DNA from: Actinomycetospora straminea
GTDB taxonomy: Bacteria; Actinomycetota; Actinomycetes; Mycobacteriales; Pseudonocardiaceae
DNA: 64,000 nucleotides
Direction of reading: 5' to 3'
Assembly: GCF_028737255.1 (NCBI RefSeq)
Contig: NZ_JAQZAN010000002.1
Location: 372,001-436,000 of the forward strand
Shown: in pieces, positions 23,452 through 54,270 of the stretch
Layout: each line of letters opens with the position of its first letter
Numbering within the stretch: the first letter of the stretch is position 1
Notes under the pieces: generated by a model
The model's input: the letters and a program-made list of their open reading frames with translations, nothing else
Databases searched by the model: none
What the model was told of the DNA's origin: nothing
Position numbers and translations under genes: made by a program

Positions 23452-23456
23452 AGGTC

Positions 23457-23978: not shown

Positions 23979-24037
23979 GTCTCCCACGGGGCCTCCCACG
24001 GGGTCGTCCGCCGGCGCGTCTCCGTCCACCGACGTCT

Positions 24038-27169
<3,132 letters not shown>

Positions 27170-27180
<11 letters not shown>

Positions 27181-29920
27181 GGCGGGCTCCTTCGGGGTCG
27201 ACGAGCACCGACTCGCCGATGCGGGCGGCCACGAGCTCGTCGCCGACGGGCACGTGCACGACCTCGCCGAGGCGCTCCCGCCCACCCTTGACCAGGGCGA
27301 GCGCGAACGGCCGGGCGAGCGCGGCGCTGTGGTAGCTGGACGTGACGTGCCCGAGCATCGGCACGGGCGCGGGGGGCAGCCGGCCGTCGTCGCAGTGCGC
27401 CACGATCTGCGAGCCCTCGGGCAGCTTGGTGGCACCGTCGGTGGGCAGCAGGGAGACGAGCTGCTTGCGCAGCGGGTTGCGGTTCTCCGCGCGGGCGTAC
27501 GACCGCTTGCCGACGAAGTCGTCCTTCTTCGTCGACACCGCCCAGGCCATGCCGAGGTCGTGGGGCGAGACGGTGCCGTCGGTGTCCTGGCCGATGATCG
27601 GGTAGCCCTTCTCGGCCCGCAGGACGTGCATGGTCTCGGTGCCGTAGGGCGTGATGCCGTACGGCGCCCCGGCCTCGACGAGCCGCTCCCACAGCGCCGG
27701 CGCGTACGGGGAGCTGACGGTGACCTCGAAGGCCAGCTCGCCGGAGAACGAGATGCGCGCCAGGCGCACCGGGACCCCGTCGAGCGAGGTGTCCTGCCAG
27801 GTCGTGAAGCCGAACGCCTCGGCGCTGACGTCCACGCCGGGGAACACCGCGCCGATCACGTCGCGCGAGCGCGGGCCCGCGACGGCGGCGATCGACCACT
27901 GCTCGGTGACCGAGGTCAGCCGCACGCGCAGGTCCGGCCACTCGGTCTGGAGCCACTCCTCCATCCGGTCGAGGACGGCGGCGGCGTTGCCGGTGGTGGT
28001 CGTGACGAGGTAGCGGTCCTCGGCGAGGCGCAGCACCGTGCCGTCGTCGAAGACCATGCCGTCGTTGCCGCACATGACGCCGTAGCGGACGCGCCCGACC
28101 TTCAGGCTCGACATCAGGTTCGTGTAGAGCCGGTCGAGCAGCACCGGCGCGTCGGGACCCCGGACGTCGATCTTGCCCAGCGTCGAGGCGTCCATGATCC
28201 CGACCGACGTGCGCACCGCGGCGCACTCGCGCAGCACGGCGGCGGTCATGTCCTCGCCGGCCCGCGGGTAGTGGCGGGCGCGCTGCCACTGCCCGACGTC
28301 CTCGAACTCCGCGCCCGCCGCCACGTGCCAGGCGTGCAGCGCGGTGGTGCGCACCGGGTCGAACAGGTCGCCGCGCTCCCGGCCCGCGAGGGCGGCGAAC
28401 GCGACCGGGGTGTAGGGCGGCCGGGCGGTCGTGGTGCCGACCTCCTGGATCGGCCGGCCGGTGAGCTCGGCGATGATCCCGAGCGCGATGATCCCGGACG
28501 TCTTGCCCTGGTCGTGCGCGGTGCCGATGGTCGTGTAGCGCTTGACGTGCTCGGGGTGGGACATGCCGGCCCCGACCGCCCGCTCGACGTCGGCCACGGT
28601 GGCGTCGCGGGCGATGTCGACGAACTGCCGCGCCGGGTCGCCGGGGGTGCGCCAGAGCACGAGCGTCGGCTCCGGCCACTCCTGCGCCGGCGCGACGGGC
28701 GCCTCGGGACCGCCGGCCTCGCGCAGCACGTCGGCCAGGGCGAACGTGCCGTTCGCGGCGCCGACGACCGTGACGCCCGGCGGCAGCTCGGCGGGCCGGA
28801 ACGCGCCGATGACCGGGTCGTAAACCAGCGAGCCGCCGACGTGGCTGGCCAGGTGCGCGGCCGGGTTCCAGCCGCCGCTGACCAACAGCAGGTCGCAGGG
28901 GACCTCGCGACGGTCCGGACCGACGACCGCGGCGGTGACGCGGTCCTCGCCGCGGGTGCCGTGCACGAGCGTGCCGGTCTCGACCGGGACGCCGCGCTCC
29001 TCACAGCGTCGCCGCCCGGCCTGGGGCGCCCGCTCGCGGGCGTCGAGGACCCGGACGCTCGCGCCCGCGTCGGCGAGGTCGGCCGCGGCCGCGTAGGCGG
29101 CGTCGTCGCTGGTGAACACGACGACCTCGCGGCCGGCGAGCACGCCGTGGCGGTGCAGGAGGTCCCGCGCGCTCGCGGCCAGCACCACGCCGGGGCGGTC
29201 GTTGTCCTCGAACGCGATGGGCCGCTCGATCGCGCCGGCGGCGACCACCACGCGCCCCGCGCGGATCCGGTGGACGCGCTGGCGGGTGCGCGCCGACTCG
29301 CCGCGGCGCTCGAGGGCGAGGACGAAGCCGTCGTCGTAGTGCCCGAACGCGGTGGTCCGCTGCAGGTGGACGACGCCCAGGGCGGCGAGCTCGGCGACGG
29401 TGTCGGCGACGAACTCCAGGGACGGCCGGCCGTCGATCGTCTCGGTGCCGGTGAGCGTGCCGCCGGCGGCGGAGCGGTCGTCGACGAGGACGACGCTCCG
29501 CCCGGCGCGGGCGGCGGCGCGGGCGGCGACGAGCCCTGCGGGCCCGGCGCCGACGACGAGCACGTCGCAGTGGGTGTGCTTGCGGTCGTACCGGGCGGTG
29601 TCGGGCACCTCGGCGAGCCGGCCCTGCCCGGCGACCCCGCGCACGACGAGCCCGTCGGTGGCCTCGACCGTCGCGGCCAGCAGCATCGGCTCGGGGAACG
29701 GCTCCTCGACCTGGACCAGCCCGACCGGGTCCTCGGTCCACGCCGCACCGATCCCGCGGGGCCGGCCGTACTTGACGCTGCTGTTCTGCGGCCGCGCGCC
29801 GTGGGCGAGCAGCACCGACGCGACGGTGTCGCCGGGGTGCCCGGTGTACGCGGTGCCGTCGACCGTCACGGTGACCGTGCGGCTGCGGTCGATGCGGCCG
29901 TATCCGTCGACGCGGCTCAT
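27170..29920 (-). CDS. soxA: Sarcosine oxidase alpha subunit
   Basis: The 916-residue protein starts at ATG 29920, overlapping the soxD stop (ATGA). An N-terminal 2Fe-2S-like domain (YTGHPGDTVASVLLAHGARPQNSSVKYGRPRG) leads into a dinucleotide domain (DVLVVGAGPAGLVAARAAA), then a NAD-binding region. The C-terminal aminomethyltransferase fold (GIMDASTLGKIDVRGPDAP, ISFSGELAFEV) binds THF. The heterotetramer oxidises sarcosine to glycine and methylene-THF. It lacks about 50 residues between the N-terminal domain and the GAGPAG motif that are present in the paralogue at 50805. Confidence 0.95.
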
Positions 29921-30189
29921 GAGGTCAGCTCCGGGTTGCTCGTCGGGCTGGACAGGAAGCGGTACGTGCGGGTGTCGCGGACGGCGGTGAACCAGCGGCG
30001 GCAGCCCGCGTTGTGGCTCCACCGCTCCGCGAACGGGCCCTTGGGGTTGTCGCGGAAGAAGACGAAGTGCGCCCACTGCTCGTCGGTCAGCGAGGCGGGG
30101 TGCTCGGGGTAGGCCACGCCGGCCTGGCCGCCGTAGGAGAACTCGATCTCCTCGCGGGGGCCGCACCAGGGGCAGGTGATGAGTTGCAC
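29917..30189 (-). CDS. soxD: Sarcosine oxidase delta subunit
   Basis: The 90-residue product has the zinc-site pattern CPWCGPREEIEFSYGG and WSHNAGCRRWFTAVRDT, invariant in SoxD. It is a small structural subunit that binds zinc. It lies 21 bases after soxB and overlaps soxA by four bases. Confidence 0.95.
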   Translation of the reverse strand: MQLITCPWCGPREEIEFSYGGQAGVAYPEHPASLTDEQWAHFVFFRDNPKGPFAERWSHNAGCRRWFTAVRDTRTYRFLSSPTSNPELTS

Positions 30190-30210
30190 GAGGACTCCCG
30201 GAGATCCGAT

Positions 30211-31476
30211 TCAGTGGGCCACGGCGGCGGCGCCGTGTTCGTCGACGAGGGCGCCGCTGACGAAGCGGTCGAGGCCGAACGGCGCGACGAGGGGGTGGGG
30301 GCGGCCGTGGGCGAGGGTGTCGGCGAACGCCCAGCCCAGTCCCGGGGTGGCCTTGAAGCCGCCGGTGCCCCAGCCGCAGTTGAGGAAGACGTTCTCGTAC
30401 GGCGTGTGCCCGATGATCGGGCTCGCGTCCGGCGTGACGTCGACGATCCCGGCCCAGCTGCGCAGCAGGTGCGCGCGGGCGAAGACCGGGAAGAGCTCGA
30501 CGGCCGCGGCCATCTGGCGCTCGATGACGTGGAACGCGCCGCGCTGGCCGTAGCCGTTGTAGCTGTCGACGCCGGCGCCCATGACCAGCTCGCCCTTGTG
30601 GGCCTGCGAGACGTACACGTGCACCGCGTTCGACATGACGATCGTCGGGTGCACGGGCTCGAGGAGCTCGGAGACCAGGGCCTGCAGCGGGTGCGACTGC
30701 AGCGGCGCGCGCACGCCGAGCATGTCCAGCAGCGTCGACGTGTGCCCGGCGGCGCAGAGGGCGACGGTGCCGGCGGCGATGGTGCCGCGGGTGGTGCGCA
30801 CGCCGGTGACGCGGTCGGCGCCCGACCCTCCCGTGACGAACCCGGTGACCTCGCAGTCCTGGATGATGTCGATCCCGGCCTCGCTGGCGCGGCGGGCGAA
30901 GCCCCAGGCGACGTAGTCGTGCTTGGCGATGCCCGCCCGCGGCTGGAACGTCGCGCCCTGGACCGGGTAGCGGATGTCCGAGGAGACGTTGACGATCGGG
31001 CAGACCTTCGCCACCTCGTCGGGCCCGAGCCACTCGGCGTCGATGCCGTTGAGCTTGTTGGCCTCGACGCGGCGCACCGAGTCGCGGACGTCCTGCTCCG
31101 TGTGCGCGAGGTTGAGCACGCCGCGCTGGCTGAACAGGATCGGGTAGTCGAGGTCCTCCTCGAGCCCCTCCCAGAGCTCGAGCGCCCGCTCGTAGATGCC
31201 GGCGGACTCGTCCCAGAGGTAGTTCGAGCGGATGAGGGTGGTGTTGCGGGCCATGTTGCCGCCCGCGAGCCAGCCCTTCTCGAGCACCGCGACGTTCGTG
31301 ATGCCGAGCTTGGCGAGGTAGTGCGCGGTGGCCAGGCCGTGGCCCCCGCCGCCGACGATGACGACGTCGTAGGCCTTCTTCGGCTCGGCGTCGCGCCAGA
31401 GGTGGTCGGGGTGCTCGGGCAGGTCGGCGCCCGGGGGCTTCGGTGCGGTGTTCGGTGCGCTGGTGCCTGCGGTCAT
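30211..31476 (-). CDS. soxB: Sarcosine oxidase beta subunit
   Basis: The 421-residue flavoprotein starts at ATG 31476, overlapping the glyA stop (ATGA). It has [21 protein letters not shown] (residues 36-56) and the SoxB motifs [27 protein letters not shown] and [17 protein letters not shown]. This subunit holds the FAD and FMN sites and oxidises sarcosine. It is close in pattern to the mgdA product at 49184, but operon context with glyA and dimethylglycine oxidase supports sarcosine as substrate. Confidence 0.95.
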
Positions 31477-32762
31477 GCCGGCGTCTCCGTCTCGAGGGGG
31501 TGGCGGGCGGCGAGGGCGGCGACCCGCTGCGCGAGCGCGTCGATCTCGGTCTCGGTGACCTGCGGGCGCAGGGCGAGGGCGACGACGTCGGCGGCCTCGC
31601 GGAAGTCGTCGGCGTCGAACCCGCGGGCGGCGAGCGCGGCGGTGCCGATGCGGACGCCGGAGCTGACCATCGGCGGGCGCGGGTCGAAGGGGACCGCGTT
31701 GCGGTTGACCGTGATCCCGACGCGGCGCAGGCGCTCCTCGGCCTGCCGGCCGTCGAGCTCGGCCTCGCGCAGGTCGACCAGCACGAGGTGGACGTCGGTG
31801 CCGCCGGAGACGACGCCGAGCCCGGGCTCGGCGAGGAGGCGCTCGGCGAGGAGGCGGGCACCGGTGAGCGTGCGCTCCTGGCGCTGTGCGAACTCCGGCT
31901 CGCCGGCGAGCTTGAAGGCGACCGCTTTGGCCGCGATGACGTGCTCGAGCGGGCCGCCCTGCTGACCGGGGAAGACGCTGGAGTTCAGCTTCTTCGCGAG
32001 CTCGCGGTCGCCGGCGAGGATGATGCCGCCGCGGGGGCCGCCGAGGGTCTTGTGCGTCGTCGAGGTGACGACGTGCGCGTGCGGCACCGGCGACGGGTGC
32101 AGGCCCGCGGCGACGAGGCCGGCGAAGTGGGCCATGTCGACCATGAGGTAGGCGCCGACCTCGTCGGCGATCGCGCGGAACGCCGCGAAGTCGAGCCGGC
32201 GCGGGTACGCCGACCAGCCGGCGACGATGAGCTTCGGGCGGCGCTCGTGGGCGAGCCGGCGGACCTCGTCCATGTCGACGCGCTGGTCCTCGGCGCGCAC
32301 GTGGTAGGCCGCGACGTCGTAGAGGCGCCCCGAGAAGTTCAGGTGCATGCCGTGGGTGAGGTGGCCGCCGTGGGCGAGCGCGAGGCCGAGGATCGTGTCG
32401 CCCGGCTCGAGCAGCGCCGCCATCACCGCGGCGTTGGCCTGCGCGCCCGAGTGCGGCTGCACGTTGGCGTACTGCGCGCCGAACAGGGCGCAGACCCGGT
32501 CGATCGCGAGCTGCTCGATCACGTCGACGTGCTCGCAGCCGCCGTAGTAGCGCCGGCCGGGGTAGCCCTCGGCGTACTTGTTGGTCAGGACGGAGCCCTG
32601 GGCCTGGCGGACCGCGAGCGGCGCGACGTTCTCGCTCGCGATCATCTCGAGCGTCCGGTCCTGCCGGCGGACCTCGTGCTGCACCTGGGCGTGCACCTCG
32701 GGGTCGGCCTCGGCGAGCGTCCGGTCGAGCGTTCGGGCTGCGGGGGCGACTGTGATCGTCAT
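31473..32762 (-). CDS. glyA: Serine hydroxymethyltransferase
   Basis: The 429-residue PLP enzyme has [39 protein letters not shown] and [16 protein letters not shown], where the Lys in HKTL carries PLP. It joins glycine and methylene-THF to form serine. As first gene of the sox operon it would consume both products of sarcosine oxidation. The chromosome probably also has a housekeeping glyA. A good promoter (TTGACC-18-TACAGT, 32835-32806) and a palindrome lie upstream. Confidence 0.95.
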
Positions 32763-43652: not shown

Positions 43653-43726
43653 CAGGCGCGTCCCGCCGCGTGGGCGGTGGCGGGCGAGCGGCCCTCGGGG
43701 TGCGGGTGCGCCACCACGGACTCCAT
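43652..43726 (-). CDS. Possible 24-residue leader peptide
   Basis: ATG 43726 opens a 24-codon frame (MESVVAHPHPEGRS...) whose TGA overlaps the SRPBCC start as TGATG. The tight coupling is the only support; no strong ribosome site or known family is seen. It could be a translational leader or chance. Confidence 0.25.
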   Translation of the reverse strand: MESVVAHPHPEGRSPATAHAAGRA

Positions 43727-43761: not shown

Positions 43762-45084
43762 TCAGCTCCCGGCGCCGGGGATCCACGACGTGCCCGCCAG
43801 CGGCACCCGCGCCATCGCCGCGGCCTCGATGGTGAGCGCGACGAGGTCCTCGGGCTCGAGGTGCTGGACGTGCGCCTTCCCGCAGGCCCGGGCGAGGGTC
43901 TGGGCCTCCATGGTCAGCACGCGCAGGTAGTTCGCGACGCGGCGCCCGCCCTCGACGGGGTCGAGACGGCTCGCGAGCTCCGGGTCCTGCGTGGTGATCC
44001 CGGCGGGGTCGCGGCCGTCCTGGAAGTCGTCGTAGTAGCCCGCCGCGGAGCCGATCGCCTCGTACTCCGCGGCGTACTGCGGGTCGTTGTCGCCCAGCGC
44101 GATGAGCGCCGCGGTCCCGATCGCGACGGCGTCCGCGCCCAGGGCCATCGCCTTCGCGACGTCCGCGCCGGTGCGGATCCCGCCGGAGACGATCAGCTGG
44201 ACCTTCCGGTGCAGCCCGAGCTCCTGCAGGGCCGCCACCGCCTGCGGGATGGCCGCGAGGATCGGGATGCCGACGTGCTCGATGAACACCTCCTGGGTGG
44301 CCGCCGTGCCGCCCTGCATCCCGTCCACCACCACGACGTCCGCGCCCGCGGCCACGGCGAGCTTGACGTCGTAGTACGTGCGGGTCGCGCCGACCTTGAC
44401 GTAGATCGGCTTCTCCCAGTCGGTGATCTCGCGCAGCTCACCGATCTTGATGGTCAGGTCGTCGGGCCCGGTCCAGTCCGGGTGCCGGCACGCCGAGCGC
44501 TGGTCGATCCCCGCCGGCAGGGTGCGCATCTCGGCGACCCGGTCGGAGATCTTCTGCCCGAGCAGCATCCCGCCGCCGCCCGGCTTGGCGCCCTGCCCGA
44601 GGACCACCTCGATGGCGTCGGCGGCCCGCAGGTGGTCGGGGTCCATCCCGTACCGGCTGGGCAGCAGCTGGTAGACCAGCGTCGTCGACTCGCCGCGCTC
44701 CTCGTCGGTCATGCCGCCGTCGCCGGTGGTGGTCGACGTGCCCACCTCGGACGCGCCCCGGCCCAGCGCCTCCTTGGCCTGCGCCGAGAGCGCGCCGAAG
44801 CTCATGCCGGCGATGGTCACGGGGATGTCCAGGTGCAGCGGCCGTGTCGCGTGGCGGTCGCCGAGCACGACGTCGGTGTCGCAGCGCTCGCGGTAGCCCT
44901 CGAGCGGGTAGCGCGACATCGACGCGCCGAGGAAGAGCAGGTCGTCGAAGTGCGGCACCGCGCGCTTGGCGCCCCACCCGCGGATGTCGTAGACGCCGGT
45001 GCGCGCGGCGTGCTGGATCGCGGCGATGGACGCCCGGTCGAACGTCGCCGACTCGCGCAGGCCCCGCTCCGAGGGATCCCTCAT
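43762..45084 (-). CDS. mgsC: N-methylglutamate synthase subunit C (FMN glutamate-synthase domain)
   Basis: The 440-residue protein matches the FMN-binding synthase barrel of glutamate synthase, with VTIAGMSFGALSAQAKEALGRG, GAKPGGGGMLLGQKIS and SGGIRTGADVAKAMALGADAVAIGTAALIALGDND. I see no cysteine run for a [3Fe-4S] cluster of the kind in full glutamate synthase. Together with the amidotransferase and GXGXG subunits upstream it forms N-methylglutamate synthase, which makes N-methylglutamate from methylamine equivalents. The gene begins directly after the mgsB stop. The alternative is a GlxD-type protein of unknown role; gmaS and mgdABCD nearby decide for the methylamine pathway. Confidence 0.88.
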   Translation of the reverse strand: MRDPSERGLRESATFDRASIAAIQHAARTGVYDIRGWGAKRAVPHFDDLLFLGASMSRYPLEGYRERCDTDVVLGDRHATRPLHLDIPVTIAGMSFGALSAQAKEALGRGASEVGTSTTTGDGGMTDEERGESTTLVYQLLPSRYGMDPDHLRAADAIEVVLGQGAKPGGGGMLLGQKISDRVAEMRTLPAGIDQRSACRHPDWTGPDDLTIKIGELREITDWEKPIYVKVGATRTYYDVKLAVAAGADVVVVDGMQGGTAATQEVFIEHVGIPILAAIPQAVAALQELGLHRKVQLIVSGGIRTGADVAKAMALGADAVAIGTAALIALGDNDPQYAAEYEAIGSAAGYYDDFQDGRDPAGITTQDPELASRLDPVEGGRRVANYLRVLTMEAQTLARACGKAHVQHLEPEDLVALTIEAAAMARVPLAGTSWIPGAGS

Positions 45085-45825
45085 CTAGTACGTCCCCGAG
45101 TGCTCGCTGGTGAAGTGGTAGAGGCCGCGGGCCGAGCCGTAGCGGCGGAACTCCCGGAGCTGCTGGTCGCCGTGCTCGAACCCCGCCGCGGCGAGCAGCT
45201 CGGCGAGCTCGGCCCGGTGCTCGTCGCGCATCTCCTTCTCGACGCAGTCGGCACCGAGCGCGCCCACCGACCCGCGCACGTAGAGCCGCGCCTCGTAGAT
45301 CGAGTCGCCGAGCCCGTCGCCGGCGTCGCCGCACACGACCATCCGCCCCGCCTGGGCCATGAACGCACTCATCGGGCCCACCGACCCGCCCACGACGATG
45401 TCGATGCCCTTCATCGAGATGCCGCAGCGCATCGACGCCGAGCCCTCGACGACCAGCAGCCCGCCGCGCCCGGTCGCGCCGGCCGACTGCGACGCGTCCC
45501 CGCGGACCCGCACGGTCCCGGACATCATGTTCTCGGCGACGCCGTTGCCCGCCGAACCGTCGACCACGACGTGCGCCAGCTGGTTCATCCCGGCGCAGAA
45601 GTAGCCGGCGTGCCCGCGGACGTGCACGTCGATCTCGTCGTGGACGCCGGCCGCGATCGAGTGCGCGCCGTGCGGGTGGAGCACCTCGTAGGACGTCGCG
45701 GTGGGCCGGTGGAGCTCGGCGTTGAGCGACCGGACGGTCGCGGTGGCGAGGTCGACCGTCACGGTGTGGGCGGTGCTCGTTGCGGTCTCGCGAGCCTCGG
45801 CCTCGGCGCGGCTCAGCGCTGCCAC
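45085..45825 (-). CDS. mgsB: N-methylglutamate synthase subunit B (GXGXG domain)
   Basis: GTG 45825 lies inside the end of mgsA (13-base overlap), giving 246 residues. The central region is a right-handed beta-helix with repeated glycine motifs: VRGHAGYFCAGM, VVDGSAGNGVAENMMSGTVRVRGDA, GATGRGGLLVVEGSA, VGGSVGPMSAFMAQAGRMVVCGDAGDGLGDS. This is the GXGXG domain of glutamate synthase as a stand-alone subunit. Its role is structural within the N-methylglutamate synthase complex. Confidence 0.88.
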   Translation of the reverse strand: MAALSRAEAEARETATSTAHTVTVDLATATVRSLNAELHRPTATSYEVLHPHGAHSIAAGVHDEIDVHVRGHAGYFCAGMNQLAHVVVDGSAGNGVAENMMSGTVRVRGDASQSAGATGRGGLLVVEGSASMRCGISMKGIDIVVGGSVGPMSAFMAQAGRMVVCGDAGDGLGDSIYEARLYVRGSVGALGADCVEKEMRDEHRAELAELLAAAGFEHGDQQLREFRRYGSARGLYHFTSEHSGTY

Positions 45826-46706
45826 GTGTACACCCGGCCGGGGTCGGGCTCGAAGATCCGGGCCTCGTCGATGCCGGGCAGGTCGGCCAGCGCCCGGAAC
45901 TCCGAGGCCATGGCCACCCAGCGCGGGTGCTCGGCGATCACCGCGGGCTTGCACGCGATCTCGTCGCGGACCACCGCGAACCCGTCGGCGGTGGTGACGA
46001 GCAGCGTGTAGAAGCCGTCGAACGTCTCCCCGAGGCGCAGCAGCGCCTTCTCGAGGTCGTCGCCCTCGGCGAGGCACGCCGCCACGAACCGCGCGCCGAC
46101 CTCGGAGTCGTTCTCCGAGTCGAACGCCGTCCCCCGGCGCTGGAGCTCGCGGCGGACGGTGGCGTGGTTGGAGAACGACCCGTTGTGCACCAGGCACTGG
46201 TCGGCGCCCACCGAGTACGGGTGGCAGCCCTCCGGGTTGATCGCCGACTCCGTCGCCATGCGGGTGTGGGCCAGGCCCTGCCAGCCGGTGACGTCGCGCA
46301 GCCCGTAGGTGCGGGCGAGGTCCCGGGGGTGGCCCGCGCCCTTGTAGACGACGAGGTCGGTGCCGCTGCCGACGACCAGCGCGTCCGGCGCGGCCGCGGA
46401 CACCGCGGCGACCAGCGCGTCGACGGCGACCGGCGCGGTGAGCACCGTCGTGTCCCCCGCCGCCTGCGCGCACACCGCGGGCGCGCCCGGCAGGAGCCCG
46501 CCGACGGTGGCCGCGAGGTCACCGGGGGCACGCAGCACCGACACGGCCGCGTGGCCCGGCGGGGTGCGCTCCTCGTCGCCGTAGACGGCGATGCCCACCG
46601 AGTCGGGCCCGCGCTCCGCGACGCCGCCGAGCATGTCGTCGAGCAGGCGTCCCAGCACCGGGTGCAGCGCGGGGTCGCGGAGGTGGAGACCGATGATGCC
46701 GCACAC
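45813..46706 (-). CDS. mgsA: N-methylglutamate synthase subunit A (class II glutamine amidotransferase)
   Basis: The start must be GTG 46706, because removal of the initiator then exposes Cys2 (V-CGIIGLHL), the N-terminal nucleophile of class II amidotransferases; GGAAGG lies upstream. The 297-residue protein also has GLAHTRMATES and CLVHNGSFSNH, typical of the glutaminase site. In this pathway it would act on gamma-glutamylmethylamide and pass methylamine to the FMN subunit. It is separated from the GntR gene by a hairpin and a dyad operator, so it probably has its own promoter. Confidence 0.88.
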   Translation of the reverse strand: MCGIIGLHLRDPALHPVLGRLLDDMLGGVAERGPDSVGIAVYGDEERTPPGHAAVSVLRAPGDLAATVGGLLPGAPAVCAQAAGDTTVLTAPVAVDALVAAVSAAAPDALVVGSGTDLVVYKGAGHPRDLARTYGLRDVTGWQGLAHTRMATESAINPEGCHPYSVGADQCLVHNGSFSNHATVRRELQRRGTAFDSENDSEVGARFVAACLAEGDDLEKALLRLGETFDGFYTLLVTTADGFAVVRDEIACKPAVIAEHPRWVAMASEFRALADLPGIDEARIFEPDPGRVYTWQR

Positions 46707-46757
46707 GGGGCTCAGCCTTCCTGCGTCGTGAGGGAGCACCGCGACGGCCCGGCGCAT

Positions 46758-46776
46758 TGGTCCGGTGAGAGGACCA
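46758..46776 (-). promoter_or_regulatory. Dyad operator candidate upstream of mgsA
   Basis: TGGTCC-N7-GGACCA is a perfect 6-base inverted repeat, about 52-70 bases upstream of the mgsA start. It is the only symmetric element between the terminator hairpin and mgsA and may be bound by the FadR-type regulator at 46851-47579. Confidence 0.45.
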
Positions 46777-46798
46777 TCGAGGGCCACGATAGGAGACC

Positions 46799-46825
46799 GA
46801 CGCCGCGTCGTGTCAAGGCGGCGTC
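46799..46825 (-). terminator. Hairpin after the FadR-type regulator gene
   Basis: GACGCCGC (46799-46806) and GCGGCGTC (46818-46825) pair perfectly around 11 bases, 26 bases beyond the regulator stop. It would separate the regulator transcript from mgsABC. Confidence 0.5.
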
Positions 46826-46850
46826 ACCGGCCGCGTCGGGCGGGCGGCGG

Positions 46851-47579
46851 TCACACCGGGCTCCACGCCACCTCGTCCGCCCCGTCCTCGGCGCCGAACA
46901 CGATGATCCTCAGTTGCCGCCGCGTCCCCTCCAGGTGCGCGCGCATCGCCGCCGACGCGGCCGCCGCGTCGCCCGCCGCGACCGCCTCGTAGATCGCCTG
47001 GTGGTCGCGCAGCGTCTCCTCGACGGGCTCGCGGAACGGCAGGAGGTCACGGGGGCTGAACAGCTCGCCGCGCGCCGACTCGACCGCCTCCTCCAGGCGC
47101 TCGTTGCCCGCGGCCCGGGCGAGGGCGACGTGGAAGCGGGAGTCGGCCTGGCGGAACGCGGTGCGCCCGATGACGTCGTGCAGCGCGAGCACCGCCTCGC
47201 GGACCGGGGCGAGCCCGACGGCGGTGTGCCGGCGCGCGGCCAGCGCCGCCGTCTCGGTCTCCAGGGCGATCCGGAAGTCGATGATGTCGTCCATCTCGCC
47301 GGCCTGGGCGCGCATCCGGGCCCGCCACGCCTCGGCCGGGCGGTGCAGCTCGGTGACGTAGGTGCCGCCGGTGGAGCCGCGGCGGACCTCGACGTAGCCG
47401 TCCTCGCGGAGCTGGCGGATCGCCTCGCGCAGGCTGATCCGCGCGACGCCGAGCTGCTCGGCGAGCTCGCGCTCGGCGGGCAGGCGCTCGCCGGGGCTGA
47501 CGTCGCCGCGGTGGATGCGCATGCGCAGGTGGTCCGCCACGGCCTGGGCCAGCGTCGTGGAGGAGACCTGCCGGGCCAT
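46851..47579 (-). CDS. FadR-type GntR regulator of the methylamine genes
   Basis: The 242-residue protein has a GntR winged helix (LAQAVADHLRMRIHRGDVSPGERLPAERELAEQLGVARISLREAIRQLREDGYVEVRRGSTGGTYV) and a helical FCD effector domain with DSRFHVALARAAGNERL and ETLRDHQAIYEAV, whose His residues usually bind a metal. It lies between mgsABC and the divergent gmaS-mgdABCD operon, so it is the natural controller of both. The ligand may be methylamine, gamma-glutamylmethylamide or N-methylglutamate. Confidence 0.88.
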   Translation of the reverse strand: MARQVSSTTLAQAVADHLRMRIHRGDVSPGERLPAERELAEQLGVARISLREAIRQLREDGYVEVRRGSTGGTYVTELHRPAEAWRARMRAQAGEMDDIIDFRIALETETAALAARRHTAVGLAPVREAVLALHDVIGRTAFRQADSRFHVALARAAGNERLEEAVESARGELFSPRDLLPFREPVEETLRDHQAIYEAVAAGDAAAASAAMRAHLEGTRRQLRIIVFGAEDGADEVAWSPV

Positions 47580-47666
47580 GGTCGGAGGCTACCCCGCACG
47601 TCACGGTGCGTGTCCGGACGAGGGAGCGCCCCGCGTCCCGCCGTGGCCGTGACGGGAGCGACGGGG

Positions 47667-47710
47667 TTGACACCCTTCGGCGGGGCCGTGAATGGTTCTC
47701 GGTCCAGACC
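47667..47710 (+). promoter_or_regulatory. Predicted gmaS promoter with overlapping dyad
   Basis: TTGACA (47667-47672) is followed after 18 bases by AATGGT (47691-47696), then by the palindrome GGTC-CA-GACC (47701-47710) near the expected start of transcription. This is a good place for repression by the divergent GntR protein. Confidence 0.4.
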
Positions 47711-47802
47711 TTGATCGGGCGGGAGCGTGCCGACGCGACCGTCGCGGGACGGGACACCGGAGGACCGACACGGTCGTCGGCCGTCACGAGCGAGGAGGCG
47801 GC

Positions 47803-49152
47803 GTGGGCGACACGCGCGACGAGCTGCGGGAGCGCGCCGAGGCGGACGGCATCGAGTTCTTCCTGGCGATGTTCGTGGACCTGCACGGCAAGCCGTGCGC
47901 GAAGGCGGTCCCGTCCTCGTCCTTCGACCTGCTCATGGACGGCGGCGCGGGATTCGCCGGATTCGCCGCCGGCGACCTCGGGCAGTCGCCCGCCGACCCG
48001 GACGTGCTCGCCGTCCCGGACCCGGCGTCGTACACGAAGCTGCCGTGGAAGCCGGGCGTCGCGGTGCTGCACTGCGACCCCCACGTCGACGGGCGGCCCT
48101 GGCCCTACGCGCCGCGGGTGATCCTGCGCCGGCAGCTCGACCAGCTCGCCGAGCGCGGGTGGGTGTTCAACACCGGCACCGAGCTGGAGTACAGCCTGCT
48201 GCGCCGGCGCGCGGACGGGGGCCTCGAGCCCGCCGACCCGCACGACACCGCGGACAAGCCCTGCTACGAGGTCAAGGGCCTGACGCGCATGTGGGACCAC
48301 CTCTCCACGGTGTCGCGGCACCTCAACGCCCTCGGGTGGGGCAACTACGCCAACGACCACGAGGACGGCAACGGCCAGTTCGAGAACAACTGGCACTACG
48401 CGGACGCCCTGACCACGGCCGACCGCGCCGTCTTCTTCCGCTACATGATCCACATGCTGGCGCACGACGCCGGCATGGTCGCGACGTTCATGCCCAAGCC
48501 GCTCTCCCACCTCACCGGCAACGGCATGCACATCCACCAGAGCCTCTGGACGCAGGACGGCCAGGCCCTCTTCGCCGACGACACCGACGCGCTCGGCATG
48601 TCCCGCACCGGCTACCACTACCTCGGCGGGCTGATCGAGCACGGCCGCGCGTCGGCCGGGATCATCTGCCCGACCGTCAACTCCTACAAGCGCATCGGCG
48701 TCGGCGCCCCGACCTCGGGCTCCACGTGGGCGCCCGCCTACGTCGCCTACGGGGGCAACAACCGCTCGGTGATGCTGCGCGTGCCCGAGGGCGGTCGCGT
48801 CGAGCACCGCGGGGTCGACGGGTCGGCCAACCCGTACCTCGCCGCCACCGTGCTGCTCGCCGCCGGCCTCGACGGCATCGACCGGGAGATCGACCCCGGC
48901 GCGTGCACCGACGACAACCTCTTCACGCTCGGCGCCGACGAGGTCCGCGCGCGCGGCATCCAGCACCTGCCGAAGACCCTCGACCGCGCGATCGAGGAGC
49001 TCGTCACCGACGACGTCCTGCGCGCGGCGCTGGGCAAGACCTCGGGCGGTGACTTCGTCGACTACTTCGCCGCGGTCAAGCAGCAGGAGTTCGACGACTA
49101 TCACGCCTCGGTGTCCGACTGGGAAGTGCGGCGCTACCTGACCCAGGCGTGA
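47803..49152 (+). CDS. gmaS: Gamma-glutamylmethylamide synthetase (glutamine-synthetase family)
   Basis: GTG 47803 with GAGGAGG five bases upstream gives 449 residues; the frame extends 37 codons further without support. It is a type III-like glutamine synthetase with FFLAMFVDLHGKPCAKAVP, NTGTELEYSLL, NGQFENNWHY, TGNGMHIHQSL and [24 protein letters not shown]. GmaS ligates methylamine to glutamate with ATP to form gamma-glutamylmethylamide, the first step of the N-methylglutamate pathway. The identity rests on its neighbours, mgdABCD downstream and mgsABC upstream; sequence alone would also allow another amine-glutamate ligase. Confidence 0.88.
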   Translation: MGDTRDELRERAEADGIEFFLAMFVDLHGKPCAKAVPSSSFDLLMDGGAGFAGFAAGDLGQSPADPDVLAVPDPASYTKLPWKPGVAVLHCDPHVDGRPWPYAPRVILRRQLDQLAERGWVFNTGTELEYSLLRRRADGGLEPADPHDTADKPCYEVKGLTRMWDHLSTVSRHLNALGWGNYANDHEDGNGQFENNWHYADALTTADRAVFFRYMIHMLAHDAGMVATFMPKPLSHLTGNGMHIHQSLWTQDGQALFADDTDALGMSRTGYHYLGGLIEHGRASAGIICPTVNSYKRIGVGAPTSGSTWAPAYVAYGGNNRSVMLRVPEGGRVEHRGVDGSANPYLAATVLLAAGLDGIDREIDPGACTDDNLFTLGADEVRARGIQHLPKTLDRAIEELVTDDVLRAALGKTSGGDFVDYFAAVKQQEFDDYHASVSDWEVRRYLTQA

Positions 49153-49183
49153 GACGCACCGAACCGTCGAGGAGGACGCCCCG

Positions 49184-50470
49184 GTGACCAGCACGAACGG
49201 CGACGGGCACCGGCCCGGACGCCGGCGCGGCTACTCGGCGTGGAGCCTGCTGCGCCACGGCCTCGGCCGGGAGGAGTGGCCGCGGGCCTGGTACGAGCGG
49301 GAGCTGCGCGGGAGCTACGACGCGGTGATCATCGGCGGCGGGGTGCACGGCCTGGCCACCGCCTACTACCTGGCCCGCGACCACGGCGTGCGCGACGTCG
49401 CGGTGCTCGACCGCGCCTACATCGGCTCGGGCGGGTCGGGGCGCAACACCGCCATCCTGCGGTCGAACTACCTCACCCCCGAGGGCGTGCGGTTCTACGA
49501 CCGGTCGGTGAAGCTCTACGAGCACCTCGCCGCGGACCTGAACTTCAACGTCATGTTCTCCCAGCGCGGGCACCTCACGTTGGCGCACAACGACGCGTCG
49601 CTGCGCACGATGCACTGGCGCACCGAGGTCAACAAGCTCCAGGGCGTCGACTCCGAGGTGATCGGGCCGGACCGCATCTCCGAGCTCGTCCCCTACCTCG
49701 ACACCAGCGGGGAGGCCCGCTACCCGATCCTCGGGGCCCTCTACCACCCGCCGGGCGGGATCGTGCGCCACGACGCCGTGGTGTGGGGCTACGCGCGCGG
49801 CGCGGACGCGCACGGGGTGCACATCCACCAGCAGACCGAGGTCACCGGCATCGACGTCGAGCGCGGCCGGGTCACCGGCGTGCAGACGAACCGCGGGCGG
49901 ATCGCGACCCCGGTGGTGCTCAACGCCACCGCCGGCTGGGCCGGCCTCGTCTCCGACATGGCCGGGGTGTCCCTGCCCATCCAGACCTCGCCGCTGCAGG
50001 CCGCGGTCACCGAGCCGGTGCGCCCGTTCCTCGACACCGTCGTCGTCTCGGGCACCCTGCACGTCTACGTGTCCCAGACCGACCGCGGCGAGCTCGTGTT
50101 CGGCGCCAGCGTCGACCCGTTCGCGTCCTACTCGATGCGCGGGTCGCTGGAGTTCGCCGAGGGCATCGCCGGGCACGTCCTCGAGCTCATGCCCGCCCTG
50201 CACCGGATACGGCTGCTGCGCCAGTGGGCCGGGCTCTGCGACATGACCCCGGACTACTCGCCGATCATGGGCCCGACGCCGGTCGAGGGCTTCTACGTCG
50301 ACGTCGGCTGGGGCACCTACGGCTTCAAGGCCGGCCCGGTGTCGGGCGAGGCGATGGCCGCGTGCCTCGCGCACGGCAAGCCGCCCGAGATCATCTCCGC
50401 CTTCGGCCTCGACCGCTTCGGCGACGGGCGGCTCGTCGGCGAGAAGGGGGCGGCCGCCGTGGGCCACTGA
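49184..50470 (+). CDS. mgdA: N-methylglutamate dehydrogenase subunit A (SoxB-like flavoprotein)
   Basis: GTG 49184 is preceded by GAGGAGG, 31 bases after the gmaS stop. The 428-residue protein has YDAVIIGGGVHGLATAYYLAR (residues 45-65), GSGRNTAILRSNYLTPEG, MFSQRGHLTLAHND and DVGWGTYGFKAGPVSGEA. It is paralogous to SoxB at 30211 but carries a basic N-terminal extension of about 15 residues (SAWSLLRHGL) common in this enzyme group. It would oxidise N-methylglutamate to glutamate, sending the methyl group to THF or as formaldehyde. Confidence 0.88.
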   Translation: MTSTNGDGHRPGRRRGYSAWSLLRHGLGREEWPRAWYERELRGSYDAVIIGGGVHGLATAYYLARDHGVRDVAVLDRAYIGSGGSGRNTAILRSNYLTPEGVRFYDRSVKLYEHLAADLNFNVMFSQRGHLTLAHNDASLRTMHWRTEVNKLQGVDSEVIGPDRISELVPYLDTSGEARYPILGALYHPPGGIVRHDAVVWGYARGADAHGVHIHQQTEVTGIDVERGRVTGVQTNRGRIATPVVLNATAGWAGLVSDMAGVSLPIQTSPLQAAVTEPVRPFLDTVVVSGTLHVYVSQTDRGELVFGASVDPFASYSMRGSLEFAEGIAGHVLELMPALHRIRLLRQWAGLCDMTPDYSPIMGPTPVEGFYVDVGWGTYGFKAGPVSGEAMAACLAHGKPPEIISAFGLDRFGDGRLVGEKGAAAVGH

Positions 50471-50529
50471 GCCCCCAAGAGGCCCGCCCGTCCCGCTCCC
50501 CCGCCAGCCCCTCCCGGAGGTGATCGACG

Positions 50530-50808
50530 ATGATGCTGCTCCCCTGCCCCTGGTGCGGGCCCCGCACCGCGACCGAGTTCCGGTTCGTCGGCGAGGCCCG
50601 GCCGCGCCCGGACCCCGCGACCGCGACGCCCGAGCAGTGGCGCCACTACCTCTACGTCCACGCCAACCCGTGCGGCTGGTCGACCGAGACCTGGTACCAC
50701 CGCGCGGGCTGCCGCCGGTACCTGTCGGTGGAACGGCACACGCTCACCCACGAGATCCGCGCGGTCCGGGACGCGGCGACGGGCACGACGGCGGAGGCCG
50801 CCCCGTGA
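50530..50808 (+). CDS. mgdB: N-methylglutamate dehydrogenase subunit B (SoxD-like)
   Basis: The ribosome site GGAGGTGATC is nearly perfect, ahead of ATG 50530 (or 50533). The 92-residue protein has the zinc motif LPCPWCGPRTATEFRFVGEA and YHRAGCRRYLSVERHT, as in SoxD, and DPATATPEQWRHYLYVHANPCG. It is a structural subunit. It overlaps mgdC by four bases (GTGA). Confidence 0.92.
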   Translation: MMLLPCPWCGPRTATEFRFVGEARPRPDPATATPEQWRHYLYVHANPCGWSTETWYHRAGCRRYLSVERHTLTHEIRAVRDAATGTTAEAAP

Positions 50809-53642
50809 GCCTGCTGCCCACGCCCCGGCGCACCCGGGCGACCGACCGCGCGGACGCCGAGCGCCTCCCGCCGCGGGCCGGCGAGGTCATCGACCGCCGC
50901 CGCACGGTGGGCTTCCGCTGGAACGGCACCCCGTACACCGGCCACCCCGGCGACACGATCGTCTCGGCCCTGGCGGCGGCCGGCGAGCGCGTGTTCTCCC
51001 GCAGCTACAAGTACCACCGCCCGCGCGGCCTGCTGACCGCGAGCTACCTCGACCCCGGCTGCGTGGTCCAGGTCGGCGACGAGCCCAACGTCCGCGGCGC
51101 GCACCGGCTGCTCGCCGAGGGCATGGACGTGCGCTCGCAGAACACGTGGCCGTCGCTGCGCTTCGACGTCCGCGCCGTGAACGGGCTCGCGAGCCGCTTC
51201 CTGGCGACCGGCTTCTACTACAAGACCTTCATCAAGCCCGAGGTGCTCTGGCCGGCCTACGAGAAGGTGCTGCGCACGTTCGTGCACGCCGGCGAGGTGC
51301 CGCCGGACAGCGCGCCCGGGGTCTACGACAAGCGCTACGCCCACCCCGACGTCGTCGTCGCCGGCGGCGGTCCGGCCGGCATGGCCGCCGCCGTCGCCGC
51401 CGCCCGCTCCGGCGCCACCGTGATGCTCGTCGAGGAGGAGCACCAGCTCGGCGGGCACCTGCGCTGGGGCGGCCCGGCCGAGCTCGCGCGCCTCGCCGAG
51501 CTGCGCGCGCAGGTCGCCGCCGAGCCCGCGATCGAGGTGCTCACCGACGCCGTCGTGGGCGCCCGCTTCGACGACAACGGGATCCCGATCGTCGCGCGCG
51601 GCGTCCCCGGGATCGACGAGCGGCTGGTCAAGGCCCGCGCGGGCGTGCTCGTGGTGGCGCCGGGGCTGGTGGAACGGCCCTACGTCTTCGCCGGCAACGA
51701 CCTGCCCGGCGTCGTGCTCTCCACCGCGGTCCGGCGCCTGGTGAACCTCCACGCCGTGCGGCCCGGCCGGCGCGCGGTCGTGCTCTCCGCCAACCCCGAG
51801 GGCGACGCCGCCGTCGGTGACCTCGAGTCCGCGGGCGTCGAGGTGGCCGAGGTCGTCGACGCCCGCCGCGGCGAGTCGGTGCGCGCCGCGCACGGGCGCT
51901 CGGGGCTGCGGGTCGTCGAGCTCGGTGACGGGCGCCGCGTCGAGGCCGACCTGCTCGTCACCGCCGTCGGGTGGACCGCGCCGACGTCGCTGCTCAACCA
52001 GTCCGGGGACCGCCCGGTCTACGAGCCGCGGGCCGCGCGCTTCGTGCCGGACCCGACGCGGATGCCGGAGAACGTGCTGGCCGCCGGCGGGATCGTCGGC
52101 GACGGCGACGTGGACGCGCTGGTCGAGCACGCCGACGCCGTGGGCCGCGAGGCGGCGCGGCGGGCCGGCCGGAGCGCGAGTGCGGCCGTCGCGGTCCCCG
52201 CGCTGCCCGTCGCCGACCACCCCGAGCTGTTCAGCGCCGGCACCGGCGGGTTCGTCGACTTCTCCGAGGACGTGTCGGCGAAGGACATCACCACCGCCGC
52301 GGCCGAGGGATACGACTCCGTCGAGCTGGTCAAGCGCTACACGACGGCGACGATGGGCCCGGCCCAGGGCAAGCTCGAGACCGTCAACACCGTCGCGGTG
52401 CTCGCCGCCGCGACCGGCCGCACGATCGCCGAGACCGGCACGACCACGTGGCGCCCGATGTGGGCGCCGGTGACCCTGGGGGCGCTGGCCGGGCGCAGCC
52501 ACGAGCCGGTGCGGTACTCGCCGATGCAGCCCTGGCACGAGCGCCACGGCGCGGTGCCGCTGATCGCCGGGCAGTGGATCCGCCCCGAGCACTACGGCGA
52601 CCCGGCCGGCGAGGTCACCGCCGTGCGCACCGGCGTCGGGATCATCGACGTCACGCCGCTCGGCAAGCTCGACCTGCGCGGCCCGGACGTCGCGTCGCTG
52701 CTCGACCTGCTCTACGTCAACAGGTGGTCGACGCTCGGGGTCGGGAAGGTGCGCTACGGGGTGATGTGCGCCGAGGACGGGGTCGTCATGGACGACGGCG
52801 TCACCGGGCGGCTCGGCGAGGACCACTACCTCATGTCCACCACGTCGTCGGGCGCGGCGACGGTGTGGGAGTGGGTCGAGAACTGGCTGCAGACCGCCCA
52901 CCCCGAGTGGCGCGTCCACGTCACGCCGGTGACCACGGCCTACGCCAGCACCAACATCGCCGGCCCCCGCTCCCGCGAGCTGCTGGGCCGCCTCACCGAC
53001 GTCGACCTCGACCCCGAGCGGTTCGGCTACATGCAGGTCCGCACCGGGCGCGTCGCCGGCGTCGACGGCTGCGTGCTGTGGCGCATCGGGTTCACCGGCG
53101 AGCTGTCCTACGAGGTCCACGTGCCCGCCGGCTACGGCCTGCACGTCTGGGAGCAGCTGATGGCCGCCGGCGCCGACCTCGGCGTGCGGCCGTTCGGGGT
53201 GGAGGCCCAGCGCGTCCTGCGCCTGGAGAAGGGCCACGCCATCGTCGGGCAGGACACCGACGGGCTCACCCAGGGCTTCAGCGCCGGTCTCGACGGGCTG
53301 ATCAAGCTCGACAAGGACGACTTCGTCGGGCTGCCCGAGCTGCGCTGGCAGCGCGAGCGCGACACCGCCCCGCGCCTGGTCGGGCTGCGCCCGCTCGACG
53401 GGATGGTCGTCCCGCCCGAGGCCAGCCAGATCCTCGACCGCGCCGGGGGCATCGCCGGCCGGGTGACCTCCAGCCGGATGTCGCCCACCCTCGGCCGGTC
53501 GATCGGGCTGGCCCAGCTCGACCGCGAGCTCGCCGAGGTCGGCACGCGCGTCACCATCCGGCTGCCCGACGGCCGCGACGTCACCGCCGAGGTCACCAGC
53601 CCGGTCCACGTCGACCCCGAGGGGGCGAGGCTCCGTGTCTGA
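50805..53642 (+). CDS. mgdC: N-methylglutamate dehydrogenase subunit C (SoxA-like)
   Basis: The 945-residue protein from GTG 50805 has a 2Fe-2S-like N-terminal domain (YTGHPGDTIVSALAAAGERVFSRSYKYHRPRG), then a segment VNGLASRFLATGFYYKTFIKPEVLWPAYEKVLRTFVHAGE absent from the SoxA at 27170, then DVVVAGGGPAGMAAAVAAARSG, and a C-terminal aminomethyltransferase domain (GIIDVTPLGKLDLRGPDVAS, IGFTGELSYEVHVP). The extra segment occurs in N-methylglutamate dehydrogenases and also in some sarcosine oxidases. It overlaps mgdD by eight bases. Confidence 0.9.
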   Translation: MSLLPTPRRTRATDRADAERLPPRAGEVIDRRRTVGFRWNGTPYTGHPGDTIVSALAAAGERVFSRSYKYHRPRGLLTASYLDPGCVVQVGDEPNVRGAHRLLAEGMDVRSQNTWPSLRFDVRAVNGLASRFLATGFYYKTFIKPEVLWPAYEKVLRTFVHAGEVPPDSAPGVYDKRYAHPDVVVAGGGPAGMAAAVAAARSGATVMLVEEEHQLGGHLRWGGPAELARLAELRAQVAAEPAIEVLTDAVVGARFDDNGIPIVARGVPGIDERLVKARAGVLVVAPGLVERPYVFAGNDLPGVVLSTAVRRLVNLHAVRPGRRAVVLSANPEGDAAVGDLESAGVEVAEVVDARRGESVRAAHGRSGLRVVELGDGRRVEADLLVTAVGWTAPTSLLNQSGDRPVYEPRAARFVPDPTRMPENVLAAGGIVGDGDVDALVEHADAVGREAARRAGRSASAAVAVPALPVADHPELFSAGTGGFVDFSEDVSAKDITTAAAEGYDSVELVKRYTTATMGPAQGKLETVNTVAVLAAATGRTIAETGTTTWRPMWAPVTLGALAGRSHEPVRYSPMQPWHERHGAVPLIAGQWIRPEHYGDPAGEVTAVRTGVGIIDVTPLGKLDLRGPDVASLLDLLYVNRWSTLGVGKVRYGVMCAEDGVVMDDGVTGRLGEDHYLMSTTSSGAATVWEWVENWLQTAHPEWRVHVTPVTTAYASTNIAGPRSRELLGRLTDVDLDPERFGYMQVRTGRVAGVDGCVLWRIGFTGELSYEVHVPAGYGLHVWEQLMAAGADLGVRPFGVEAQRVLRLEKGHAIVGQDTDGLTQGFSAGLDGLIKLDKDDFVGLPELRWQRERDTAPRLVGLRPLDGMVVPPEASQILDRAGGIAGRVTSSRMSPTLGRSIGLAQLDRELAEVGTRVTIRLPDGRDVTAEVTSPVHVDPEGARLRV

Positions 53643-54270
53643 GCAGACGGCCGTCGCGCGCAGCCCGATCGCGCCCGCCGCGCCGACCGTCCGGCACGGC
53701 TGGGAGGTCGACGCGACGGTGACCGTCGGGCCGCTGACGCTGTCCGACGAGACGCCGCTGGCCAAGGTGTCCGTCCGCGCGCCCTTCGACGGCGCGGCGC
53801 GGCGGGCCCTCGGGGTGCGGTACGGCCGCACCGGGCGGGTCGACCTCGGCGGCGAGGGCGTGCTGATCGCGGGTGCCGGGCCCGGCGAGTGGCTGGTGCT
53901 CGGCGCGCCGGGCACGGGCGCGGCGCTCGTGGCGTCGCTCGAGGAGCTGCTCGCCGGCACCGGCGAGTTCACCTCGGTCCTCGACCTCACTCACGGCCGC
54001 GCCCTCGTCCGCCTCGAGGGAGCCGCCGCGCCGCGCGTGCTCGCCGGCGTCTGCGCGATCGACCTCGCCGACGCCGTGACGCCCGACGGCACCGCGCTGC
54101 GGACGTCGGTCGCGGCCGTGGTCACCGACGTCGTCCGCGACGACCGGGCCGGCGTGCGCTCCTACCTGCTGCACGGCGAGCGGTCGTCGGGCCAGTACCT
54201 CGCCGACAGCCTGCTCGAGGCGGGCGCCGGGGCGGGGCTCGAGGTCACGGGATTCCGCGGCCTGGGCTGA
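53635..54270 (+). CDS. mgdD: N-methylglutamate dehydrogenase subunit D (SoxG-like)
   Basis: The 211-residue protein from GTG 53635 has DVGGEG-like beta strands, GPGEWLVLGAPGTG and SVLDLTHGRALVRLEGAAAPRVLAGVCAIDL, the SoxG/GcvT-like fold. It is the last gene of gmaS-mgdABCD. It is much diverged from SoxG at 26557. It converges on the cyclase gene with 13 bases between stops and no hairpin. Confidence 0.88.
   Translation: MSEQTAVARSPIAPAAPTVRHGWEVDATVTVGPLTLSDETPLAKVSVRAPFDGAARRALGVRYGRTGRVDLGGEGVLIAGAGPGEWLVLGAPGTGAALVASLEELLAGTGEFTSVLDLTHGRALVRLEGAAAPRVLAGVCAIDLADAVTPDGTALRTSVAAVVTDVVRDDRAGVRSYLLHGERSSGQYLADSLLEAGAGAGLEVTGFRGLG

Follow-up and report, generated by a model that had tools for sequence, protein, structure and literature searches.

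The window analysed here, the whole stretch of 64,000 nucleotides (bases 372001-436000 of contig 22) from the genome of Actinomycetospora straminea (6.29 Mb, given as 98.96% complete with 3.28% contamination), holds at 43762-54270 a complete N-methylglutamate gene set consisting of mgsABC, gmaS, mgdABCD and an FCD-domain regulator of the GntR family. The cluster is real and complete, and its reading frames are open. On the minus strand lie mgsC (43762-45084), encoding the flavin mononucleotide (FMN) subunit of N-methylglutamate synthase (Glu_synthase PF01645, 304.9 bits), mgsB (45085-45825), encoding the GXGXG subunit (PF01493, 33.3 bits, cut-off 32.5), mgsA (45813-46706), encoding the class II amidotransferase subunit (GATase_6, 55.6 bits), and the regulator gene (46851-47579; PF07729 91.2 bits, PF00392 74.2 bits). 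The plus strand carries gmaS (47803-49152), encoding gamma-glutamylmethylamide synthetase, followed by the genes of the presumed N-methylglutamate dehydrogenase: mgdA (49184-50470, beta-type subunit; DAO, 246.1 bits), mgdB (50530-50808, delta-type; SoxD PF04267, 96.8 bits), mgdC (50805-53642, alpha-type with a folate-binding GCV_T domain; SO_alpha_A3, GCV_T and Fer2_4) and mgdD (53635-54270, gamma-type; TIGR01375, 56.2 bits, under the cut-off of 143.95). All four Mgd subunit types thus stand in a single run with gmaS, the gamma subunit under its NCBIfam cut-off, and all three subunit types expected of MgsABC are present, the GXGXG subunit barely over its cut-off. The MgsA start, refined by eye to the GTG at 46706 on the minus strand, is followed by C-G-I-I-G. 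These matches confirm the eight genes and the FCD regulator in the order given by a preliminary description made from the sequence alone, together with its statement that the amidotransferase Cys2 is intact. Because the longest gmaS reading frame opens on the very base, 47692, with which the operator motif discussed below begins, the likely gmaS start is set at the GTG at 47803. The same gene set is found again in relatives; the cluster is therefore not a product of chance.

Distribution and gene order

The closest named relatives belong to Actinomycetospora, and the GmaS of A. lemnae is 97% identical to that of the window. A GmaS-family match over the cut-off occurs in 22 of 61 genomes (its own and 60 relatives) and, within the genus, in 17 of 18, one each; phylum-wide, the window GmaS finds a match at E<=1e-110 in 20 of 396 genomes, its own included. 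All locus counts given below refer to the best 80 of 563 relatives from a collection scan. Among these 80 loci, mgsABC is present in 61, mgdA together with mgdC in 29, and both in 26, among them Pseudonocardia dioxanivorans CB1190; a strong FCD match is found in 26 and an XRE-cupin regulator in 36. Many loci end at contig ends: 42 of the 80 are at least 18 kb long, and 21 of these 42 hold mgsABC, mgdA and mgdC. The named loci and the genome set overlap (L049 and L032, for example, are the same A. lemnae contig), and the rows counted are related rather than independent. Judged by gene content, the N-methylglutamate pathway is widespread in Actinomycetota.

A hand count of the 26 FCD loci gives the divergent layout of the window in nine (eight Actinomycetospora and P. 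endophytica), mgsABC-gmaS, mostly then mgdABCD, as one run read away from the FCD gene in 13, the mgd genes across the FCD gene on the other side in three, and an FCD gene lying apart in one. The preliminary description had proposed a synteny comparison: the layout it reported is real, and the pathway as such is not new for actinobacteria.

GmaS and its active site

The window GmaS reaches 602.3 bits with TIGR03105 (cut-off 469.6), a model titled type III glutamate--ammonia ligase, and its best Protein Data Bank matches are 9qur, named glutamate--methylamine ligase, and 7cql, the Rhodovulum GmaS (RhGmaS) of PMC7948447. A 49-row tree, with the other three synthetases of the genome as root, places it in an actinobacterial group (90/98) that is sister to the alphaproteobacterial GmaS including 7cql (99/98). 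With 7cql and 9qur in the tree, the protein groups with characterised GmaS and apart from the glutamine synthetases of its own genome; a position among ordinary glutamine synthetases was what the preliminary description had named as refuting its reading. Two rows labelled type I (a cluster type defined below) with no FCD or mgd gene nearby, L079 and L084, both lie outside the type I clade.

Of the RhGmaS active-site residues checked, 13 of 14 are kept in the window; the methylamine-site residues and Arg312 were taken from section 7 of PMC7948447 and the others from the same paper. The position of Asp177, proposed as the methylamine base of RhGmaS (PMC7948447), is Asp in every GmaS row and in a third paralogue, and His in the genome's own synthetases. 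At the position of Gln175, in the methylamine pocket, the window and 33 of 34 actinobacterial rows of three groups carry Ala, whereas all eight reference rows, 9qur and seven from proteobacteria, carry Gln. This substitution allows that the eight genes serve some other small primary amine, such as ethylamine or isopropylamine, through a gamma-glutamylalkylamide, an N-alkylglutamate and Mgd, and a permease present in 18 of the 26 FCD loci leans the same way, one member scanned being nearest to an ethanolamine permease (196.5 bits, below the cut-off of 381.75). However, the positions of Asp177, Lys30, Tyr147, Tyr174 and Asn188 are all kept, and the folate domain of mgdC, together with purU beside mgdD in several relatives, points to a one-carbon product. 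Another amine is accordingly regarded as an unlikely substrate, and methylamine is the preferred one.

Near several type I clusters lies a third pair of paralogues, one gene glutamine-synthetase-like and the other MgsA-like (30-33% identity; L042 17453-19771, L063 165-2491, L064 11-2223 and L070 155-3225, with L042 and L070 apparently one contig).

Two cluster types and the origin of mgsABC

Across the 18 Actinomycetospora genomes, type I clusters (GmaS 82-97% identical to that of the window) occur in 11, type II clusters (GmaS 53-55%) in six, and neither in one (G016). In 10 of the 11 type I genomes mgdA stands behind gmaS, the exception being the metagenome-assembled genome G007. The six type II clusters read gmaS-mgsABC-flavin oxidase-XRE/cupin regulator, with oxidase and regulator present in 6/6, and their single flavin oxidase belongs to the DAO family and is 28-29% identical to MgdA or SoxB. 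In L044, L046 and a plasmid of Streptomyces NBC_01320 (L142), the oxidase slot is occupied by a protein resembling N-methyltryptophan oxidase and monomeric sarcosine oxidase (216.3 bits for L046 and 249 for L142, below the cut-off of 257; L044 by eye). On the Streptomyces plasmid, a mycothiol-dependent formaldehyde dehydrogenase comes next after the oxidase (665.5 bits, cut-off 512.9).

The trees place the genes of the window with both types. GmaS and MgdA group inside type I, MgsA among the type II rows of Actinomycetospora (8 rows, 99/97); an MgsA tree constrained to hold all type I together is rejected (p=0.001). In the MgsB tree, the window and the type II rows of the family form one 14-row group (100/99), separate from that of the type I one-operon rows (100/100). 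The MgsC of the window lies outside the type I one-operon group (100/100), the remainder of that tree being poorly resolved. The cluster therefore looks like a hybrid, with mgsABC from a compact type II operon and gmaS and mgdA from a type I operon, and the divergent layout would follow from this joining of parts. As to coverage, the MgsC tree is without L115 and L145 and the first MgsA tree without seven rows; the later MgsA and MgsB trees, made with a lower length limit, regained L071, L065, L072 and L067, added L073, and are without L058, L066 and L070, with L087 and the Acidimicrobiales-type rows left out by choice. Short or stop-containing translated matches were left out of one sequence set.

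A second kind of mosaic is seen in five Pseudonocardia (dioxanivorans, sulfidoxydans, spinosispora, eucalypti and SCN 73-27), in which MgsA goes with type I (97/96, covered over residues 98-297 only), MgsB goes with type II, and MgsC is 90-91% identical to that of the window. This bears on the alternative that the divergent layout is ancestral in actinobacteria and the other arrangements derived from it, with no fusion at all. Uncertain tree roots, the weak inner support of the MgsC tree and four proteobacterial MgsC rows that share the cysteine-free state described below would suit such a history; the Pseudonocardia mosaics, the well-supported type II position of MgsA with rejection of the constrained tree, and the type I position of GmaS and MgdA argue against it. 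It is the least probable of the three alternatives considered in this work, and a fusion of type I and type II parts is preferred.

An XRE-cupin gene of the type II kind stands behind mgsC in four of the eight type I Actinomycetospora relatives in which the place is visible (G004, G005, G007 and G008, but not G002, G010, G012 and G017). Compared with A. lemnae, the window is without a 592-base stretch that holds almost all of the XRE-cupin gene, and without a 3.6 kb stretch encoding a permease and a small membrane protein; these stretches lie at 1739-2330 and 5339-8958 of L049, and the corresponding junctions in the window at 43721-43723 and 46741-46754. The permease is part of the cluster in eight of nine type I relatives with the place visible, A. 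cinnamomea being the exception. No close homologue of the permease was found elsewhere in the genome (best 31%), and none of the XRE-cupin regulator at 1e-10, in a search run without a positive control. With the XRE-cupin gene missing, the FCD gene is the only regulator seen in the cluster of the window. An empty-site comparison was dropped, as the matches to the flanking polyketide-cyclase-like and S9-peptidase genes do not occur together in type II genomes.

Two classes of MgsC

At three MgsC positions that were matched by eye to the [3Fe-4S] cysteines of glutamate synthase (LGC, C and CPVG), the cysteines are all present in 25 of 87 rows and all absent in 62 of 87, with no intermediates; the 87 rows are not all distinct, some being the same contig twice. 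The window MgsC carries D-Y-D in these columns and so lacks all three, and on the three-cysteine pattern it does not read as a large chain of glutamate synthase (GOGAT). The cysteine-free class comprises the window, the type II rows except L087, Acidimicrobiales-type rows (MgsC 72-80%) and four proteobacterial rows. Cysteines are found in the type I one-operon clusters (MgsC about 70%), the acI-type loci and L087, which carries a type II label, yet clusters with the type I one-operon rows. In the fusion, one MgsC class thus appears to have been traded for the other. Early enzymology has N-methylglutamate synthase active with no reductant added, as would suit the cysteine-free class. Furthermore, both classes adjoin the same kind of GmaS and Mgd, which makes the need of N-methylglutamate synthase for outside electrons directly testable.

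MgdA and sarcosine oxidase

A glycine-betaine/sarcosine-type cluster at 20394-32762 on the minus strand (purU, sdaA, a dimethylglycine dehydrogenase-like gene, soxG, soxA, soxB and the serine hydroxymethyltransferase gene), with its own FCD regulator at 22736-23404 on the plus strand, lies 11 kb from the methylamine cluster and served as a control. Its SoxB (30214-31443) scores 704 bits against the crystallised sarcosine oxidase and groups with it (100/100). The window MgdA, 47% identical to this SoxB, lies outside the clade of the crystallised enzyme, and SoxB inside. MgdA keeps the His aligning with position 173 of 2gag_B, presumably the residue that carries FMN, and the Lys of the GFK motif. 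The distance between soxB and mgdA, which share a contig in both cases, is about 14 kb in A. lemnae (G008) and about 19 kb in A. chibensis (G002).

With the window MgdA as query at E<=1e-40, all eight type II or gmaS-less genomes of the family tested (G001, G003, G006, G009, G014, G015, G016 and G021) give one match, which is sarcosine oxidase by the tree, and 3/3 type I genomes have sarcosine oxidase plus MgdA. Since the former have only sarcosine oxidase as an MgdA match, the single flavoprotein of type II is likely the N-methylglutamate oxidase of those clusters. Among six further genomes of the order (G043, G132, G418, G355, G055 and G052; GmaS 53-55% to the window; the layout of the cluster is visible only in G043, G055 and G052), five are without an MgdA match and G355 has sarcosine oxidase.

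A 97/99 branch splits the actinobacterial MgdA from all others. The gmaS-linked MgdA of alphaproteobacteria (SC52, R. leguminosarum and M. bullatum) fall together with sarcosine oxidase in a group of 10 rows (100/100), and proteobacterial and cyanobacterial sets lie between them and the actinobacterial branch. These intermediate Mgd-type sets are linked to gmaS in P. caribensis MBA4 and A. caldus; in Ruegeria, Paracoccus and Neorhizobium, the retrieved stretch shows no gmaS. A single clade of all 28 Mgd and Mgd-like beta subunits against 6 sarcosine oxidase and outgroup rows is rejected (p=0.008), but the sole outgroup, 1y56_B, has a very long branch, which makes the result no more than suggestive. 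On the megaplasmid of Acidithiobacillus caldus (L153), purU, an Mgd-type set, gmaS, mgsABC and folD stand in a row, and a related MgdA is encoded on a plasmid of the cyanobacterium Kovacikia minuta (L157).

Because the window MgdA is off the alphaproteobacterial branch, the assignment of N-methylglutamate as the Mgd substrate rests on gene linkage. It is conceivable that mgdABCD is an oxidase of the sarcosine/betaine series that happens to lie beside gmaS, something else oxidising N-methylglutamate; the subunit family shared with sarcosine oxidase, and the related sets of Ruegeria, Paracoccus and Neorhizobium, would agree with this. The genome, however, possesses a genuine sarcosine oxidase set of its own at a distance of 11 kb, the second beta subunit accompanies the type I clusters in the E<=1e-40 comparison, and mgdA stands behind gmaS in nearly every type I Actinomycetospora genome. 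A role of mgdABCD apart from N-methylglutamate is thus considered quite improbable, and the four-subunit enzyme is preferred as the N-methylglutamate dehydrogenase of the pathway.

Regulator and putative operator

Upstream of gmaS, at 47692-47712 on the plus strand, lies the motif ATGGTTCTCGGTCCAGACCTT, a member of the AAGGT-N11-ACCTT class with one mismatch and the presumed site of the FCD regulator. On the same strand, a TTGACA located by eye at 47667-47672 resembles a -35 box and would belong to the gmaS promoter. AAGGT-N11-ACCTT with at most one mismatch is found in 20 of 27 FCD-side regions (the window and the 26 loci); with other spacers from 5 to 17, it is found in none of the 27, except for 3/27 at spacer 17. 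The motif precedes gmaS in Actinomycetospora and mgsA in most Pseudonocardia, that is, the gene read away from the regulator, and TTGACA stands before it in 12 of 13 FCD-side regions inspected (the exception being L058). A longer pattern, built after seeing the sites, has one match in the window, and its zero expectation is not independent of them. The position of the motif suggests that the FCD regulator acts as a repressor.

A candidate second operator, a weak imperfect palindrome, lies upstream of mgsA at 46757-46777. Three motif forms were tried, and shuffled sequences reach the palindrome in 0.5% (7+7), 8% (5+11) and 3% (core) of cases. Among ten genomes, it is present in the window and in A. 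cinnamomea, where it matches the core alone; no second site was found before mgsA in the eight other relatives, seven of which have the permease gene between and one purU.

Proposed pathway

GmaS would couple methylamine to glutamate with ATP, MgsABC would turn the resulting gamma-glutamylmethylamide into N-methylglutamate on FMN, and MgdABCD would oxidise N-methylglutamate back to glutamate, the methyl carbon passing to tetrahydrofolate or leaving as formaldehyde. The main gain would likely be nitrogen. For the hexulose-phosphate synthase of the ribulose monophosphate pathway, nothing over the cut-off was found in the genome, which speaks weakly for nitrogen rather than carbon supply as the role and is given no further weight here. 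The FCD regulator may repress gmaS-mgdABCD at the motif just behind the promoter, and perhaps mgsABC through the second site. As to origin, gmaS-mgdABCD and the FCD gene would go back to a type I cluster of the sort found in Pseudonocardia, and mgsABC would have been acquired from a compact type II cluster within the same family, a cysteine-free synthase replacing a cysteine-bearing one. Gene content, family membership, tree positions and the conserved motif are what the sequences show; the reading built on them, an FCD-repressed N-methylglutamate pathway for methylamine encoded by a fusion of type I and type II clusters, is given a probability of about 0.78.

Several observations weigh against it, beginning with the Ala in the pocket of GmaS and the position of MgdA off the alphaproteobacterial branch. 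The profile matches of mgsB and mgdD are weak, yet both genes stand at conserved cluster positions. The Actinomycetospora genome G007 (L031, also L051) has a type I gmaS, an FCD gene and mgsABC, but the 7 kb visible behind gmaS hold no mgd genes, and mgd genes were not found near the clusters of L060, L066 and L067. The motif has two to four mismatches in the remaining 7 of 27 regions (two in three of them; three or four in L051, L068, L069 and L074); it was chosen by eye after inspecting the sequences, its control shuffles single bases, and the regions come from related genomes. The second operator is weak in both of the 2/10 genomes that have it. Finally, substrates, reaction steps, repression, use as a nitrogen source and the direction of replacement are what we infer from sequence.

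Relation to known systems

The preliminary description had held the divergent arrangement with an FCD regulator to be, as far as it knew, undescribed for actinobacteria; it made no mention of the sarcosine oxidase cluster nearby, the hybrid origin, the Fe-S cysteines missing from MgsC or the operator motif. The pathway itself was proposed in 2015 for Mycobacterium sp. 141 and 155 (McTaggart et al., PMC5023230) and is present in 26 of the 80 loci, so the novelty does not extend to it; for the FCD layout, as for methylamine use by Actinomycetospora, no publication was found in a search at the level of listings, in which papers pairing N-methylglutamate with GntR were left unopened. The one paper found to pair methylamine with Actinomycetospora, PMC9858702, is a groundwater survey. 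Nayak and Marx 2015 (PMC5023228) deals with Proteobacteria, and PMC8262859 lists the pathway for Binatota.

The gmaS-mgsABC-mgdABCD clusters of Methylobacterium and Rhodobacterales hold the same eight gene families. Their GmaS is sister to that of the window and their MgsC (3 rows) likewise lacks the Fe-S cysteines, whereas their MgdA is on another branch of the sarcosine-oxidase family, and two records show GlxA- and cupin/HTH-type neighbours instead of an FCD regulator. Mycobacterium sp. 141 and 155 have an actinobacterial gmaS with mgsABC, as in the window; unlike in the window, their mgdA-D are far from gma-mgsABC by the locus numbers given in PMC5023230. These mgdA-D may be sarcosine oxidase, given that five of the six other genomes of the order lack such a beta subunit and the sixth has sarcosine oxidase. 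The type I operon of Pseudonocardia (e.g. P. nigra and P. bannensis) has an FCD gene with the same motif, with GmaS 77-78% and MgdA 82-84% identical to the window; in contrast to the divergent layout, it forms one run mgsABC-gmaS-mgdABCD then purU, and its MgsC is only 68-70% identical and carries the Fe-S cysteines. The type II operon of Actinomycetospora shows the reverse pattern, with MgsC 89-90% identical to that of the window, GmaS only 53-55%, and the single flavoprotein (6/6 genomes) in place of MgdABCD. Beyond a pathway already known, what looks new is the fused origin, a cysteine-free synthase where the type I kin have cysteines, the separate Mgd branch and the conserved motif by the regulator.

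Implications

An evenly balanced case can be made for a broader view, in which the actinobacterial N-methylglutamate pathway would be a kit of exchangeable parts: MgsC classes are swapped in working clusters, at least three flavoenzymes fill the oxidising slot, and the regulator changes along with them, the window being a natural fusion that shows the swap. The three flavoenzymes, put forward jointly with this view and with the same even odds, would be two single-subunit oxidases of different kinds and a four-subunit enzyme whose recruitment was separate from that of its alphaproteobacterial counterpart. As a nitrogen compound, methylamine is widespread. Its users are surveyed through these genes: gmaS serves as a marker for them (PMC7948447), and detection of the pathway has relied on three genes of M. 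extorquens PA1, gmaS, mgsC and mgdC (PMC5023228). If the enzyme that oxidises N-methylglutamate varies by lineage, surveys of this kind may overlook actinobacterial users or give them a wrong name, and some sarcosine oxidases may have been taken for Mgd.

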